Below are positions 26,854-32,217 of a stretch of 47,579 nucleotides of DNA, piece by piece. Origin of the DNA: Bacteroidales bacterium. GTDB lineage: Bacteria > Bacteroidota > Bacteroidia > Bacteroidales > P3. The first letter of the stretch is position 1. Each line of letters starts with the position of its first letter. The notes beneath the pieces were generated by a model. It was not told where the DNA came from, made no database searches, and was given only the letters and a program-made list of their open reading frames with translations. Where the stretch lies: assembly GCA_024400545.1 (NCBI GenBank), contig JAKSMO010000013.1, forward strand, positions 1 to 47,579, read 5' to 3'. The translations under genes and the position numbers were made by a program.

Positions 26854-27198
26854 ATGTACACGTTTATTGTTATCCTTATCCTGATTGTTTGCCTGTTCTT
26901 GGCATGTGTCGTACTGGTTCAGAATTCTAAGGGTGGCGGCTTGGCTGCCAACTTTGGTGGAGCCAATCAAGTGATGGGCGTTCGTAGAACTACCGAGACT
27001 ATCGAGAAAATCACCTGGGGTTTGGCTATTGCACTGGTTGTGCTTTCTCTTTTCGCAACTATGGCTATTCCTCGCCACTATGCTGAGGCCAACCTCAACA
27101 CCGAGGTTGACGTGAATGCAGCCAAGAGCCTTGCTCCCGCCGCTAGCGTTCCCACCGCAGCCGAGGCTGCTGCCGAAGCTCCTGCCCAGGCCGAATAA
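26854..27198 (+). CDS. secG: Preprotein translocase subunit SecG
   Basis: SecG is the small SecYEG partner that aids SecA-driven export. It has two membrane helices, at about 2-21 (FIVILILIVCLFLACVVL) and 52-72, joined by the conserved cytoplasmic loop VQNSKGGGLAANFGGANQVMG. The Ala/Glu-rich C-terminal tail (about 85-114) is longer than in E. coli SecG but usual in Bacteroidetes. It is the second gene of a short operon with the TPR-like protein and is followed by a hairpin terminator. Confidence 0.95.
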   Translation: MYTFIVILILIVCLFLACVVLVQNSKGGGLAANFGGANQVMGVRRTTETIEKITWGLAIALVVLSLFATMAIPRHYAEANLNTEVDVNAAKSLAPAASVPTAAEAAAEAPAQAE

Positions 27199-27264: not shown

Positions 27265-28692
27265 ATGGACAAAGTAGTCAGATACATATTATCACACTTC
27301 CCGCATCAGCCCACCGATGGGCAGTATTGCGCATGCAAGGCCATGGTCGAGTTTCTATATGACGACGACCCCATGTCGGCTTTTGTGCTGAAAGGCTATG
27401 CCGGCACAGGAAAGACCTCGTTGGTGAGCGCCCTAATCAAGTCGCTACCGGCCTTAAAAGTAAAGAGTGTGTTGCTAGCCCCCACGGGCAGAGCGGCCAA
27501 GGTGCTATCGGGCTATGCCGGATGCAGAGCCTACACAATCCATAAAAAGATATACCAGACAATAACCGACGGAAGCGGAATAGTGCGTATGGCCCGAGCC
27601 CTGAACAAGCACAAATACACATTGTTCATCGTTGACGAGGCCTCAATGATAGGGCTTGCCAACGAGATGGGAATGCCACACAGAAGCTTGCTAGAAGACC
27701 TAATAGACTATGTGACCGAGGGCTACAACTGCCGACTGATGCTGATAGGCGACACAGCCCAGCTGCCGCCTGTGGGCGCCGACGAGAGTCCGGCATTGGA
27801 TTTGGAATACCTCAGAGCCATATCGCAGTTGAAAGTACATCATTTCCAGCTCACCGAGGTGGTGCGACAGCAACAGATGTCGGGCATACTCCTCAACGCC
27901 ACAATGCTACGCACCCAGATAGCGCTGTTGGAAGAAGGCGAGCCTCCCGAGCTCCCCCTCTTTGACTTGGCCGACTGCCAAGACATTGTGCGCCTGCAAG
28001 GTGCCGACCTCGAGGAGACGCTGAACATGGAGTACGACGCGCACAATCTGGAGGAGGTGGCAATAGTTACGCGCAGCAACAAGCGGGCCAACCTCTTTAA
28101 CCAAGAAATACGCAACAGGGTGCTTTTCCGCGAAGAGGAAGTAAACGCCGGCGATTTTCTAATGGTGGTGAAGAACAACTATTACTGGCTAGATGCCGAG
28201 AGCGACATAGGCTTTATTGCCAATGGTGATATTGTGGAGGTGTTGAGCGTGCGCAACCATCAGGAATTGTACGGCTTCAGTTTTGTGGATGCCACAGTAC
28301 GTTTTGCCGACTATCCCGATGCGCCATCGCAAGACTGTAAGTTGCTCCTGCAGACCCTACACAGCGAATCACCGTCGCTCACAAGAGAAGAATCGCAGAA
28401 ACTGTTTGATGCTGTGATGGAGGATTATGCCGACATACCTCATAAGGCCGACCGACTGAAGGCAGTGAAACAAGACCCTTTTTTCAACGCCTTGCAAATC
28501 AAGTTTGCATATGCACTGACATGCCATAAGACCCAAGGCGGGCAATGGGACACAGTAATCGTGGACCAGGGATATATGACCGATGAGATGCTTTCGCGCG
28601 AATATCTGCGCTGGCTCTATACAGCAGTGACTCGTGCCACCCGCAAAGTATATCTCCTCAACTTCCAGGATAAATTTTTCCCGGAGGAATAA
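27265..28692 (+). CDS. RecD-like ATP-dependent DNA helicase (superfamily 1)
   Basis: A 475-residue helicase with the Walker A motif GYAGTGKTSL near residue 44, Walker B VDEASMIG, motif III LIGDTAQLPPVG, and a C-terminal UvrD_C_2 region with YALTCHKTQGGQWDTVIVD (motif V) and WLYTAVTRATRKVYLL (motif VI). All ATPase motifs are present. It is shorter than RecD2 (about 730) because the N-terminal HhH region is absent. Bacteroidetes commonly carry such a stand-alone RecD/Pif1-like helicase with no RecB or RecC beside it, probably acting in repair or replication restart. The gene begins 10 bp after the secG terminator. Confidence 0.9.
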   Translation: MDKVVRYILSHFPHQPTDGQYCACKAMVEFLYDDDPMSAFVLKGYAGTGKTSLVSALIKSLPALKVKSVLLAPTGRAAKVLSGYAGCRAYTIHKKIYQTITDGSGIVRMARALNKHKYTLFIVDEASMIGLANEMGMPHRSLLEDLIDYVTEGYNCRLMLIGDTAQLPPVGADESPALDLEYLRAISQLKVHHFQLTEVVRQQQMSGILLNATMLRTQIALLEEGEPPELPLFDLADCQDIVRLQGADLEETLNMEYDAHNLEEVAIVTRSNKRANLFNQEIRNRVLFREEEVNAGDFLMVVKNNYYWLDAESDIGFIANGDIVEVLSVRNHQELYGFSFVDATVRFADYPDAPSQDCKLLLQTLHSESPSLTREESQKLFDAVMEDYADIPHKADRLKAVKQDPFFNALQIKFAYALTCHKTQGGQWDTVIVDQGYMTDEMLSREYLRWLYTAVTRATRKVYLLNFQDKFFPEE

Positions 28693-28763: not shown

Positions 28764-31256
28764 ATGAACAACGGACAACGCCAAATACTAAAGCAACAAC
28801 AAAAGCTCTCGCCACAGCAAATGCAGCTGATGGCACTGCTACAACTGCCTATCACTTCGCTGGAACAGAAATTGAAAGAAGAGGTGGAAAAGAATCCAAT
28901 GCTTGAGATAACGAGCGCCGAAGGTAATTACACCGAATCGTTGCCCGAGCAGAATGCTGCCGACGCCGGAGGCGACGTGGGCGTGGATACAGAGGACGAT
29001 GACTATAGCTACCGCGAACGACAGGAACGCGACCGAAACCAAGACCCTCGACAACCAGTCTTTATTTCGGAGACATCATTTGGCGACCATCTGATAGATC
29101 AATTGGCACTGCGCAACCTGTCGCACCGACAGATGCTGATTGCGCAGGAACTAATCGGAAGCATGGACGATGCAGGATATATCGAACGCAGCGTAGAACT
29201 AATATCTAACGATATGGCTTTTTCGCAAGGCTTGGAGGTATCGCCAGCCGAGGTAACCGAGGTGCTGAGTCATCTTCAACAGCTCGACCCCCCTGGCATC
29301 TGCGCTCGCAACTTGCAGGAGTGTTTGTCCATACAACTGCGACGCCTTGCCCAACAAACCGACGCGGTGAAAATAGCACAGCAAATAGTGGACCATTGCT
29401 TCGACTTTTTTGCCAAACGCAACTACGACCGCATCAAAGAGTATCTATCCATTGACGACGACACGCTGCAATCGGCCATAGGCGTGATACAACGCCTTAA
29501 TCCCAAACCAGGATTGGGTGAGAGCGAAACGGCTCATGCACAATACATCATTCCCGACTTTATCGTAACCCGCCGCGACAACCACCTGGACCTGATATTG
29601 GCCGAGACCTACCTACCCCAGCTGCAGATGAACGACTACTACCTAAACATGATGGAGGAGATGTCGGCTAAGGCAAAACTGACAGCAGGCGAGGCTGAGA
29701 CGCTTTCGTTTTTGAAAGCCAACAACGAAAGTGCCAATGTGCTTGTGTCGGCACTGCAGCAACGCCAAACTACAATGCTCACGGTGATGAAAGCCATCAT
29801 GCGGGTGCAGCACAAATTCTTCATGACCGGCGATCCTGCCGATTTAAAGCCACTGCTGCAGAAAGATGTGGCCGCGGCTACGGGATATGACTATTCCACC
29901 ATTTCACGCGTGGTGAACAGCAAATATGTGCAGACGGAGTTCAATACCATATTGCTGAAAGAATGCTTCTCACAGTCCATCACCAACGACGAGGGAGAGG
30001 ACGTTTCGACCGAAGCGGTGCGACAAGCGCTACAAGATGCCGTTGACTCGGAAGACAAGACAAAGCCCTATACCGACGATGCGCTGGTGGGACTGCTTAA
30101 AGCCAAGGGATTTACGGTAGCCCGCCGCACCGTGGTGAAATATAGAGAAATACTAAACATTCCGTCGAGCCGACAACGCCGTATGCTTAAGACCATAGCC
30201 CTGCTGCTAATGGTGGCATTATCGGGTATTACGCATGCCCAACAGCCGCAGAAAGAGAGCTATTTCGACTCGCTACTCAATGCCCGAATACGCGAAGGTC
30301 AAATGCAAGTGCGCCAAGGCAATGCCGACAAGAACAAAGATGCCAAGAAAGGCAAGGCCAAGAAGGGACAGTCGGCTCCGGCACAAACAATCTTAGAGAT
30401 TCACGAGCCCACACCGGAGCCTACGGCAATAGACACAGCACTGGCATTGGGCGACGAACTGATCAATGTAATGTACGACGCTTCGCTACCAGCACCTTCG
30501 GCCTTATGGTATGGCCGCAACTTGTCGGGGGCGCATGTGCGAATGGCCAATCTTTCAATGGATTCTCTGCCTGACGAAATATCCATCCAACTGCTCAAAG
30601 ACAAAGAACGCTTTTGCTTTCCGGTGAAGAATGTGAAGACCTCGCCCTATGGCTGGCGATGGAACAGGCCGCACCGTGGGGTGGACATCCGACTTAACAC
30701 AGGAGATCCCGTACACAGCGCCTTCAACGGAGTGGTGCGCATAGCCCGCGCTATGGGCGGATACGGCAACCTTGTGGTGATACGACACTACAACGGATTG
30801 GAAACAGTGTATGGCCATTTGTCGAAGATAAATGTACGGCCATTGCAAGTAGTTGCCGCCGGACAGGTAATTGGGCTAGGCGGCAGCACCGGTCATTCAA
30901 CGGGCCCGCACCTGCATTTTGAAGTTAGGTTTCAGTATGAGGCTTTCGACCCCGAATGGATTTTGGATTTTTCCAACTACTCGTTGCGCACTCGCCGTCT
31001 TTATCTGGACAAGACCTACTTTGGCATTAAAGCACCCAAGGCTGGCGAGAACGTGAGCTACAAGGCCGACAAAAGCATTGTGCCCGAAGAACAGTCGCGA
31101 GGGAAACAGCCTACAAAGCCCGTGTACGCCACCATACGCAAAGATGAATCGTTGGATGCGTTTGCCAAACGTAACTATACCACTGTGGATAAAATTAAAG
31201 CACTGAACCCCGATATGGGCACACCCAAATCAGGAACCCGAGTGCGTGTAAGATAA
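28764..31256 (+). CDS. rpoN: RNA polymerase sigma-54 factor fused in frame to a secreted M23 peptidase
   Basis: One uninterrupted 830-residue frame joins two unrelated proteins. Residues 1-473 are a full sigma-54: the Gln-rich activator-interacting region I (QKLSPQQMQLMALLQLP), the core-binding middle, and the RpoN box ARRTVVKYREILNIPSSRQRR as the last segment. Where sigma-54 normally stops, the frame continues with Met474 (ATG at 30183), a classical signal peptide (LKTIALLLMVALSGITHAQQ), a Lys-rich linker, an M23 endopeptidase with HRGVD and GPHLHF zinc ligands, and a C-terminal LysM-like segment. Either this is a true fusion with an internal signal anchor, or the peptidase is translated from ATG 30183 and the rpoN stop was lost. 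ATGCTTAA at the junction holds a TAA in the neighbouring frame, so a one-base indel in the rpoN tail is a plain alternative. Confidence 0.9.
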   Translation: MNNGQRQILKQQQKLSPQQMQLMALLQLPITSLEQKLKEEVEKNPMLEITSAEGNYTESLPEQNAADAGGDVGVDTEDDDYSYRERQERDRNQDPRQPVFISETSFGDHLIDQLALRNLSHRQMLIAQELIGSMDDAGYIERSVELISNDMAFSQGLEVSPAEVTEVLSHLQQLDPPGICARNLQECLSIQLRRLAQQTDAVKIAQQIVDHCFDFFAKRNYDRIKEYLSIDDDTLQSAIGVIQRLNPKPGLGESETAHAQYIIPDFIVTRRDNHLDLILAETYLPQLQMNDYYLNMMEEMSAKAKLTAGEAETLSFLKANNESANVLVSALQQRQTTMLTVMKAIMRVQHKFFMTGDPADLKPLLQKDVAAATGYDYSTISRVVNSKYVQTEFNTILLKECFSQSITNDEGEDVSTEAVRQALQDAVDSEDKTKPYTDDALVGLLKAKGFTVARRTVVKYREILNIPSSRQRRMLKTIALLLMVALSGITHAQQPQKESYFDSLLNARIREGQMQVRQGNADKNKDAKKGKAKKGQSAPAQTILEIHEPTPEPTAIDTALALGDELINVMYDASLPAPSALWYGRNLSGAHVRMANLSMDSLPDEISIQLLKDKERFCFPVKNVKTSPYGWRWNRPHRGVDIRLNTGDPVHSAFNGVVRIARAMGGYGNLVVIRHYNGLETVYGHLSKINVRPLQVVAAGQVIGLGGSTGHSTGPHLHFEVRFQYEAFDPEWILDFSNYSLRTRRLYLDKTYFGIKAPKAGENVSYKADKSIVPEEQSRGKQPTKPVYATIRKDESLDAFAKRNYTTVDKIKALNPDMGTPKSGTRVRVR
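30183..31256 (+). other. Peptidase half of the fusion: M23 endopeptidase with signal peptide and LysM-like end, possible independent start
   Basis: Read alone from ATG 30183, this is a normal 357-residue exported murein hydrolase: signal peptide about 1-19 (cleavage after THA), a low-complexity Lys/Ala linker, PYGWRWNRPHRGVDI opening the lysostaphin-type domain, GHLSKI, and GSTGHSTGPHLHFEV closing the zinc site. A C-terminal stretch (ATIRKDESLDAFAKRNYTTV onward) resembles LysM. Its complete signal peptide with its own Met suggests it was a separate gene in the ancestor. It may still be made separately by re-initiation. Confidence 0.7.
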
Positions 31257-31275: not shown

Positions 31276-32217
31276 ATGAAAGTAGTTTTTATGGGAACCC
31301 CCGACTTTGCCGTGGCATCGCTTCACGCAATCTGCTCGGCAGGGCATGACGTGGTTGGCGTTGTTACCGTGCCTGACCGTCAAACTGGCCGCGGACTAAA
31401 AGTCACATATTCCCCAGTCAAACAATCTGCATTGGATCATAACCTGCCCTTGCTGCAACCCGAACGACTGCGCGACGAGCAGTTCCAGCAGGAGTTGAAA
31501 GCCTGGGGTGCTGATATCTTTGTGGTGGTGGCTTTCCGTATGCTACCCCAAAGTGTGTGGGCAATGCCGCCCATGGGCACTTTCAACCTGCATGCTTCAT
31601 TGCTGCCACAGTACAGAGGCGCGGCACCCATCAACTGGGCCATTATCAACGGCGAAACCGAGACGGGCGTTACCACCTTTATGCTCAATGAGCGAATTGA
31701 CGAAGGCGGTATTCTACTGCAGCGCAGCACGCCTATTACCGCCAACGACAATGCAGAAACCCTTCACGACCGACTGGCCGAAATGGGTTCGCAAATGGTA
31801 GTGGAAACCTTGGAGGGGCTGGCCAGCGGAACCCTTACCCCCCAGCCTCAGCCAATGACTGACACACTGCGCCCCGCACCCAAGATTTTCAAACCCGACT
31901 GTGCCATCCAATGGGAACGCTCGGGAAAAGAAATAGTTGACTTTGTGCGCGGACTATCCCCCTACCCTGCTGCCACCATGGTTATGACCGACGACAAAGG
32001 ACGCTTGCAATCAATCAAAGTGTATGAAACCGAATTTGAACCTTGCGATTCTGCAAAAGCCACACAAGTGGTAACCGACAAAAAAAACACGATAAAAATA
32101 GGTGTAAATGACGGATATGTACATATTTTGAGTCTTCAGTTGAGTGGTAAAAAAAGAATTTCGGCACAAGAAATGCTCAGAGGATACGATATAACAAATT
32201 GGAAATTAGAAATATAA
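31276..32217 (+). CDS. fmt: Methionyl-tRNA formyltransferase
   Basis: Fmt formylates the initiator Met-tRNA using 10-formyl-tetrahydrofolate. The N-terminus KVVFMGTPDFAVASL, the catalytic loop LHASLLPQYRGAAPINWAI (Asn, His and the later Asp), and TGVTTFMLNERIDEGGILL are diagnostic. The C-terminal domain with FVRGLSPYPAA is present. Length is 313, standard. It starts 19 bp after the sigma-54/M23 frame and may share its transcript. Confidence 0.97.
   Translation: MKVVFMGTPDFAVASLHAICSAGHDVVGVVTVPDRQTGRGLKVTYSPVKQSALDHNLPLLQPERLRDEQFQQELKAWGADIFVVVAFRMLPQSVWAMPPMGTFNLHASLLPQYRGAAPINWAIINGETETGVTTFMLNERIDEGGILLQRSTPITANDNAETLHDRLAEMGSQMVVETLEGLASGTLTPQPQPMTDTLRPAPKIFKPDCAIQWERSGKEIVDFVRGLSPYPAATMVMTDDKGRLQSIKVYETEFEPCDSAKATQVVTDKKNTIKIGVNDGYVHILSLQLSGKKRISAQEMLRGYDITNWKLEI

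Follow-up and report, generated by a model that had tools for sequence, protein, structure and literature searches.

Sigma-54 is encoded in one frame with a putatively exported M23 peptidase in a genus of Bacteroidales

Sigma-54 is a soluble factor that is controlled through AAA+ activators. What, then, is to be made of a locus in an uncultured member of the Bacteroidales at which the sigma-54 gene, rpoN, runs without a stop into the gene of an M23 murein peptidase, with what looks like an export signal between the two? The locus (28764-31256) lies in a 47,579-nucleotide stretch of DNA, contig JAKSMO010000013.1 of assembly GCA_024400545.1, the whole of which we call the window. We find that the in-frame fusion is real and conserved, and we propose that its internal signal would leave sigma-54 on the inside of the membrane and send the peptidase to the outside.

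The fusion is a single open frame of 830 codons, from an ATG at 28764 to a stop at 31254-31256 (its parts are collected in Table 1). All three sigma-54 domains score above their Pfam cut-offs (the activator-interacting domain, Sigma54_AID, PF00309, residues 5-49; the core-binding domain, CBD, PF04963, 101-293; and the DNA-binding domain, DBD, PF04552, 316-473), the sigma-54 family TIGR02395 matches at 395 bits against a cut-off of 277, and Peptidase_M23 (PF01551, 636-730) matches at 110.8 bits. The unbroken passage from a full sigma-54 into an M23 domain, which an initial annotation had read from the letters of the window, is thereby borne out, as is the boundary that it had drawn: the sigma-54 part closes with NIPSSRQRR at residue 473, behind an RpoN box at 453-461, and the codon of Met474 follows at 30183. 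The TAA that it had pointed to within the junction ATGCTTAA does read in a different frame. Sigma-54 typically ends ~12-15 residues past the RpoN box, and this chain runs 357 residues beyond that usual end. Behind NIPSSRQRR comes MLKTIALLLMVALSGITHA and then QQ, forming a hydrophobic run and a signal-peptidase-like site, and then a linker. Judged by pattern, the signal features of exported proteins (a basic n-region, a hydrophobic core, and a signal peptidase site) are present mid-chain, with 473 sigma-54 residues ahead of them and no stop between. A sigma domain, a predicted membrane segment, and a putative extracytoplasmic domain are combined within one chain; among the Pfam matches of the fusion at E 0.001 there is no anti-sigma family, and its sigma domains are of the sigma-54 type only.

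Solved structures place the boundary at the same point. We built an AlphaFold model of the fusion with 43 sequences (mean predicted local distance difference test score, pLDDT, 71.5; predicted template modeling score, pTM, 0.42), in which the sigma-54 fold is confident and the M23 fold moderately confident, and Foldseek returned M23 peptidases as well as the sigma-54 of RNA polymerase complexes as its structural matches. Chain M of 9mse aligns with query residues 3-475 and chain M of 5nwt, the Escherichia coli sigma-54 (RpoN), with 106-475; query residue 475 corresponds to position 476 of 477 in chain M of 9mse. Since the sigma-54 chains in the Protein Data Bank (PDB) align through residue 475, near their own last residue, the extension begins at the natural end of sigma-54, and these solved 477-residue chains end where the predicted export segment of the fusion starts. 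In the model, one unbroken helix (469-487) joins the sigma-54 tail to the hydrophobic run. At the far end of the chain, where the initial annotation had seen a LysM-like domain, the model has a strand-helix-helix-strand arrangement at 788-828 that may fit that description; Pfam gives no LysM match at the C terminus of the window's fusion protein, and it does give one in an unfused relative of the M23 gene from the family.

To place the fusion among its relatives, the rpoN-M23 loci of 120 genomes of the genus were searched and their stop-to-stop frames classified by phmmer, the classes depending on the stretch of each locus that was retrieved. Sigma-54 and M23 share one uninterrupted frame in 85 of the 120 genomes, that of the window included, and are separate neighboring genes in 29; two (G013 and G445) have sigma-54 without M23 in the retrieved stretch, and four (G003, G032, G430, and G510) gave weak M23-type matches only and no rpoN match. 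The lowest identity of a fused match to the window protein is 46% (G450). Five of the fused genomes (L093, L094, L003, L004, and L106) share their junction peptides with public metagenome-assembled genomes (MAGs; L032-L036) that bear differing project labels; because these peptides are the same as those of the five counted genomes, L032-L036 were not added to the count. Together with one fused protein from another genus of the family (G518), the 85 make up the 86 fused proteins compared below. The distance between the sigma-54 and M23 parts, measurable by exact motif in 56 of the 86, takes 30 different lengths, each divisible by three, which the definition of the class entails. Where the two genes are separate, their relative frames are random, both in the genus (10/8/11; n = 29) and in other genera (7/4/9; 20 measurable of 27).

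That the frame stems from faulty assembly, or from a stop lost recently in this genome alone, is left with a negligible probability by these counts. The window genome is indeed a draft (2.64 Mb in 105 contigs, 96% complete, with 8% contamination; the window is its contig 11), and the named relatives are MAGs, which tells against the fusion; the same junction nevertheless stands in one frame in 85 of 120 genomes, five of them present also as public MAGs under differing project names. The lost stop or hidden indel that the initial annotation had offered as its plain alternative is contradicted both by this and by the random frames of the separate pairs, and the comparison of junctions among close relatives that it had called for comes out in favor of a conserved in-frame fusion, with no stop between the halves. 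We also considered stop read-through in separate pairs that share a frame (e.g., L058, L145, and L154); the same-frame share, 10/29, is at chance level and so gives no sign of it. Long open frames outside the genus (G513, G532, G549, G219, G512, and G115) proved on direct reading to be separate frames, and ten order-level loci picked for long frames or extended matches, among the matches listed, all end normally, without a fusion.

The junction itself suggests how an export signal could arise at the end of sigma-54. Junctions were parsed by the RpoN-box pattern in 83 of the 86 fused proteins, and the remaining three were read by eye. In ten order-level relatives the ordinary sigma-54 end is R[LM]R[KR]E[LI] and a stop (one has an extra Ala), 23-24 residues from the start of the RpoN box. 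In the fused proteins a basic RLRR is followed by an uncharged run at a median offset of 0 and with a median length of 14 residues (range 8-19), and xx[A/G]Q, a loose pattern, occurs at most 48 residues from the basic pair in 82/83 junctions. By this comparison the basic C-terminal tail of sigma-54 now serves as the positive start of the predicted signal peptide. Met474, behind which the initial annotation had placed a signal peptide, is not a conserved start: a Met stands directly behind the first basic pair in 5/83 junctions and behind a third Arg in a further two (L019 and L172), and Gln replaces Met474 in four of the nearest relatives (L003, L004, L093, and L094). For want of such conservation, the idea that Met474 begins a separate M23 gene was rejected. 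As no stop divides the halves and a single rpoN was found (the window genome has one sigma-54 DNA-binding domain match), the sigma-54 of this genome must be made with the export segment, and free sigma-54 would need proteolysis.

Both halves appear to be maintained. The zinc motifs of the peptidase, HxxxD and HxH, are kept in 86/86 fused proteins, in agreement with the active-looking M23 domain described at the outset, and the RpoN box is canonical in 83/86, its lysine being changed to S or N in the other three. Ratios of nonsynonymous to synonymous substitution (dN/dS), which are rough because some pairs are distant, are 0.26 for sigma-54, 0.31 for the tail and signal, 0.38 for the linker, and 0.11 for M23 over 27 independent pairs, and sigma-54 and M23 distances correlate at 0.86 across the 86 fused proteins. 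The three box-lysine variants form a sub-clade of fused proteins (L121, from G479, ARRTVASYR; L134, from G448, ARRTVSNYR; L144, from G450, ARRTVANYR), and the change may alter promoter recognition there. A strong bacterial enhancer-binding protein (bEBP) is found in 109/119 genomes of the genus, in 61/62 of the most complete ones, and exactly one in 98/109. The window genome has one strong PF00158 protein, of 432 aa and with GAFTGA present (L227:1468-2766, contig 95), in which the AAA+ domain begins at residue 12 and is followed by ~115 residues of unassigned role and an HTH_8 end; Pfam finds no sensor domain in it. A gene for an M50 site-2 protease is present in the window genome as well.

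How the two genes came to be joined is indicated by their arrangement elsewhere in the family. From 53 non-genus genomes drawn, 47 loci entered the comparison: 24 have rpoN, a gap of ~500-1000 bases, and M23; 3 have the two genes adjacent; 1 is fused; and 19 have no M23 in the stretch (one of these being cut by a contig end). M23 downstream of rpoN, found in 27 of the 47, is thus a common family arrangement. In one locus of another genus the space between them codes for a membrane-like protein of 197 residues that matches no Pfam family (L177:2167-2760). Since the gap is common in other genera and kept in two members of the genus (G470 and G444), the path seems to have been loss of a middle gene and then fusion. 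The fused exception, G518 (L182), has the same pair joined in frame and is independent of the fusion in the window's genus.

A sigma-54 tree of 162 rows needs three changes between fused and separate states (rows without M23 being uncounted), and in a 52-row IQ-TREE analysis a single branch (SH-like approximate likelihood ratio test, SH-aLRT, 87) divides all 30 fused genus rows from the remainder. The latter left out G013 and G445; a 42-row tree that includes both nests them among the fused rows (support 97 with L121, L134, and L144, and 90 at the next fork). On that tree four changes are needed and a single clade of fused rows is rejected (approximately unbiased, AU, test, p ~1e-43), because the unfused G013 and G445 nest inside. 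In G013 (L063) and G445 (L173) alike, sigma-54 is unfused and ends at a normal stop, and the only M23 proteins found are paralogs (41 and 46% identity), so we read the two as probable secondary losses of the M23 half. The 162-row tree groups L170/L174, rows with separate genes, with some fused rows (support 90), and the 42-row tree places these and L164 beside the fused rows without resolution. On the simplest reading, the fusion would have arisen once, long ago, in the window's genus, and the M23 half would have been lost at least twice since.

From this architecture we infer membrane insertion, cutting, release, and regulatory use, the link from envelope state to sigma-54 transcription that the initial annotation had raised among them, as follows. 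The gene would give one chain made up of sigma-54, a signal peptide begun by the sigma-54 tail, and M23 with a LysM-like end. Most likely the internal signal sends the chain to Sec, with sigma-54 remaining inside and M23 passing outside, and signal peptidase then cuts between A and Q of the xxAQ site and frees the wall peptidase into the periplasm. Sigma-54 would stay at the inner membrane through a signal-peptide remnant of ~15-20 residues, and removal of this remnant, for example by an RseP-like site-2 protease, would yield free sigma-54, the supply of which would then track export and membrane proteolysis. RseP is described as taking part in the elimination of signal peptides in E. coli (PMC8144685). 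We give the core of this proposal (a single chain with cytoplasmic sigma-54, an internal signal peptide, and an exported M23 peptidase, cut by signal peptidase so that a remnant is left in the membrane) a probability of roughly 0.7.

Parts of this arrangement have counterparts in known systems. IutY of Pseudomonas putida is described (PMC8999054) as a hybrid of an extracytoplasmic function (ECF) sigma factor, of group ECF243, and an anti-sigma factor, the sigma part of which is freed by Prc and RseP. Like the fusion, it joins a sigma factor in the cytoplasm through a membrane segment to an outside part, all in one chain; unlike it, IutY belongs to the ECF (sigma-70) class and carries an anti-sigma domain, whereas the fusion has sigma-54 and a wall peptidase as its outside part. 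The same paper describes the ECF52 factors, for example SCO4117 of Streptomyces coelicolor, which share with the fusion a sigma factor that is extended at its C terminus by a membrane portion and bears an extracytoplasmic domain (a carbohydrate-binding one in their case) and differ from it in their ECF class, their zinc-finger anti-sigma-like extension, and their occurrence in Actinobacteria, with no hydrolase mentioned. On these comparisons the fusion would work as a tethered sigma factor and yet stand outside the ECF groups of IutY and ECF52. For the other half, exported LytM-type M23 peptidases begin with their own signal peptide; models of MepM, ShyA, and DipM and the structures 9gy1 and 6ue4 match the fusion in HxxxD, HxH, and fold, but the signal of the fusion has a positive end that belongs to sigma-54. 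A sigma-54 membrane fusion was not found in the open-access papers searched.

Three readings accept the fusion and dispute the proposal. It is quite possible, at somewhat less than even odds, that the chain is quickly cut and has no regulatory meaning, an intergenic deletion (earlier, that of a middle gene) having joined neighbors that proteolysis separates again into two proteins. The long-standing proximity of rpoN and M23 in the family, mostly across a large gap, the fusion of the same pair in a second genus, and the loss of the M23 half in two lineages that kept sigma-54 all agree with this; against it, the fusion is kept in 85 genomes, with a median sigma-54 distance of 0.50 among fused proteins, though the two-gene form is common in the genus, and a hydrophobic tail on every sigma-54 chain should presumably be costly if useless. 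An uncut 830-residue protein is improbable. Such a chain would be a type II membrane protein that keeps sigma-54 in the cytoplasm and the peptidase anchored at the outer face of the inner membrane, and it would resemble ToxR and CadC, membrane-bound one-component regulators that have a cytoplasmic DNA-binding part, one membrane pass, and a periplasmic part; unlike the fusion these are not sigma factors, and cutting by signal peptidase is not expected of them. A lasting anchor would suit a basic tail that runs straight into a hydrophobic run and a model helix that continues through both, but short hydrophobic runs are typical of cleavable signals, and the shortness of this one together with the xx[A/G]Q site, loose as that pattern is, favors cutting. 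That the peptidase comes mostly from an internal start in the last sigma-54 codons, with the long chain a by-product, strikes us as distinctly doubtful. An ATG, GTG, or TTG lies in the sigma-54 tail or hydrophobic start in 75/83 junctions (ATG in 35), so that an additional, internally started peptidase is possible, and the Val of IPVxR is GTG in 37/53 cases against 0.566 of all Val codons, a mild excess among related sequences; yet the position of the start is nowhere conserved, 8/83 junctions have none of the three codons between the box and the hydrophobic start, four of the nearest relatives have Gln in place of Met474, and, with no stop, each ribosome that completes sigma-54 still produces the fusion.

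Beyond these start codons and the draft state of the genome, other points weigh against our proposal. The pTM of the model is too low to fix the arrangement of the domains; a scan of the genome for the sigma-54 promoter consensus gave 3 matches against 2 in the control; and G013 and G445, unfused within the fused clade, indicate that the link can be given up. The separate-gene genomes G444, G472, and G499 (rows L164 and L170/L174) change position with the tree, lying among the fused rows in some and next to them in others, and a return to two genes, or further losses or gains, is possible. Taking cutting and a membrane remnant as the likeliest outcome, we would extend the proposal with little confidence to a reading that we think unlikely on present evidence, namely that sigma-54 is made in these bacteria only as a membrane-targeted polyprotein, that clearance of the spent signal by a site-2 protease acts as the release switch, and that export and wall growth exert control beside the lone sensorless activator.

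An entire group of bacteria seems to produce its sigma-54 in one chain with an exported wall enzyme, in which case localization and proteolysis of the sigma factor must matter, and an export signal at the end of sigma-54 could couple gene regulation to the envelope in these uncultured Bacteroidales. Francke et al. 2011 (PMC3162934) argue from gene context that the exterior of the bacterial cell, with its peptidoglycan, is built under the control of sigma-54; neither "transmembrane" nor "fusion" nor "fused" occurs in the main text of that paper. If true, the fusion would be a physical link between sigma-54 and the cell exterior of the kind argued for in that paper. The C-terminal tail of one protein would have become the signal-peptide start of another at least two independent times, and the fusion makes it possible to ask whether, in nature, a signal peptide can still work behind a large folded domain.

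Table 1. Positions in the window of the parts of the sigma-54-M23 fusion and of the genes on either side
Feature	Position	Strand	Basis
AAA_30/UvrD_C_2 helicase gene, 71 bases ahead of the fusion	27265..28692	+	Pfam
Sigma-54 part, residues 1-473 (AID, core-binding, and DNA-binding domains)	28764..30182	+	Pfam, NCBIfam TIGR02395, PDB sigma-54 chains
RpoN box ARRTVVKYR, residues 453-461	30120..30146	+	Sequence; ARRT[VI]xKYR in 83/86 fused proteins
Basic sigma-54 C-terminal tail EILNIPSSRQRR, which would act as signal n-region	30147..30182	+	Junction comparison
Predicted hydrophobic export segment, residues 474-492, ending ITHA before QQ	30183..30239	+	83/86 junctions parsed; xx[A/G]Q pattern; model helix
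Linker and peptidase pre-domain, residues 493-635	30240..30668	+	Mostly low model confidence; dN/dS 0.38 (linker part)
Peptidase M23 (LytM-type), residues 636-730, HxxxD and HxH	30669..30953	+	Pfam, PDB matches, motifs in 86/86 fused proteins
LysM-like C-terminal fold, residues 788-828	31125..31247	+	Strand-helix-helix-strand in model
fmt gene, 19 bases past the fusion	31276..32217	+	Pfam

The surroundings of the fusion include fmt, a match to which is found in 42/43 other fused loci tested and in 19/19 unfused named loci (its presence was scored, not its position). SecG is encoded at 26854-27198 of the window, two genes upstream of the fusion, and is preceded by a 211-residue gene without a Pfam match. 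Elsewhere in the genome, one of the three promoter-like sites of the consensus scan (L238 ~1075-1090, contig 71) lies inside the end of the preceding gene and ~108 bases upstream of the next, which we take to be YccA/Bax-inhibitor-like.

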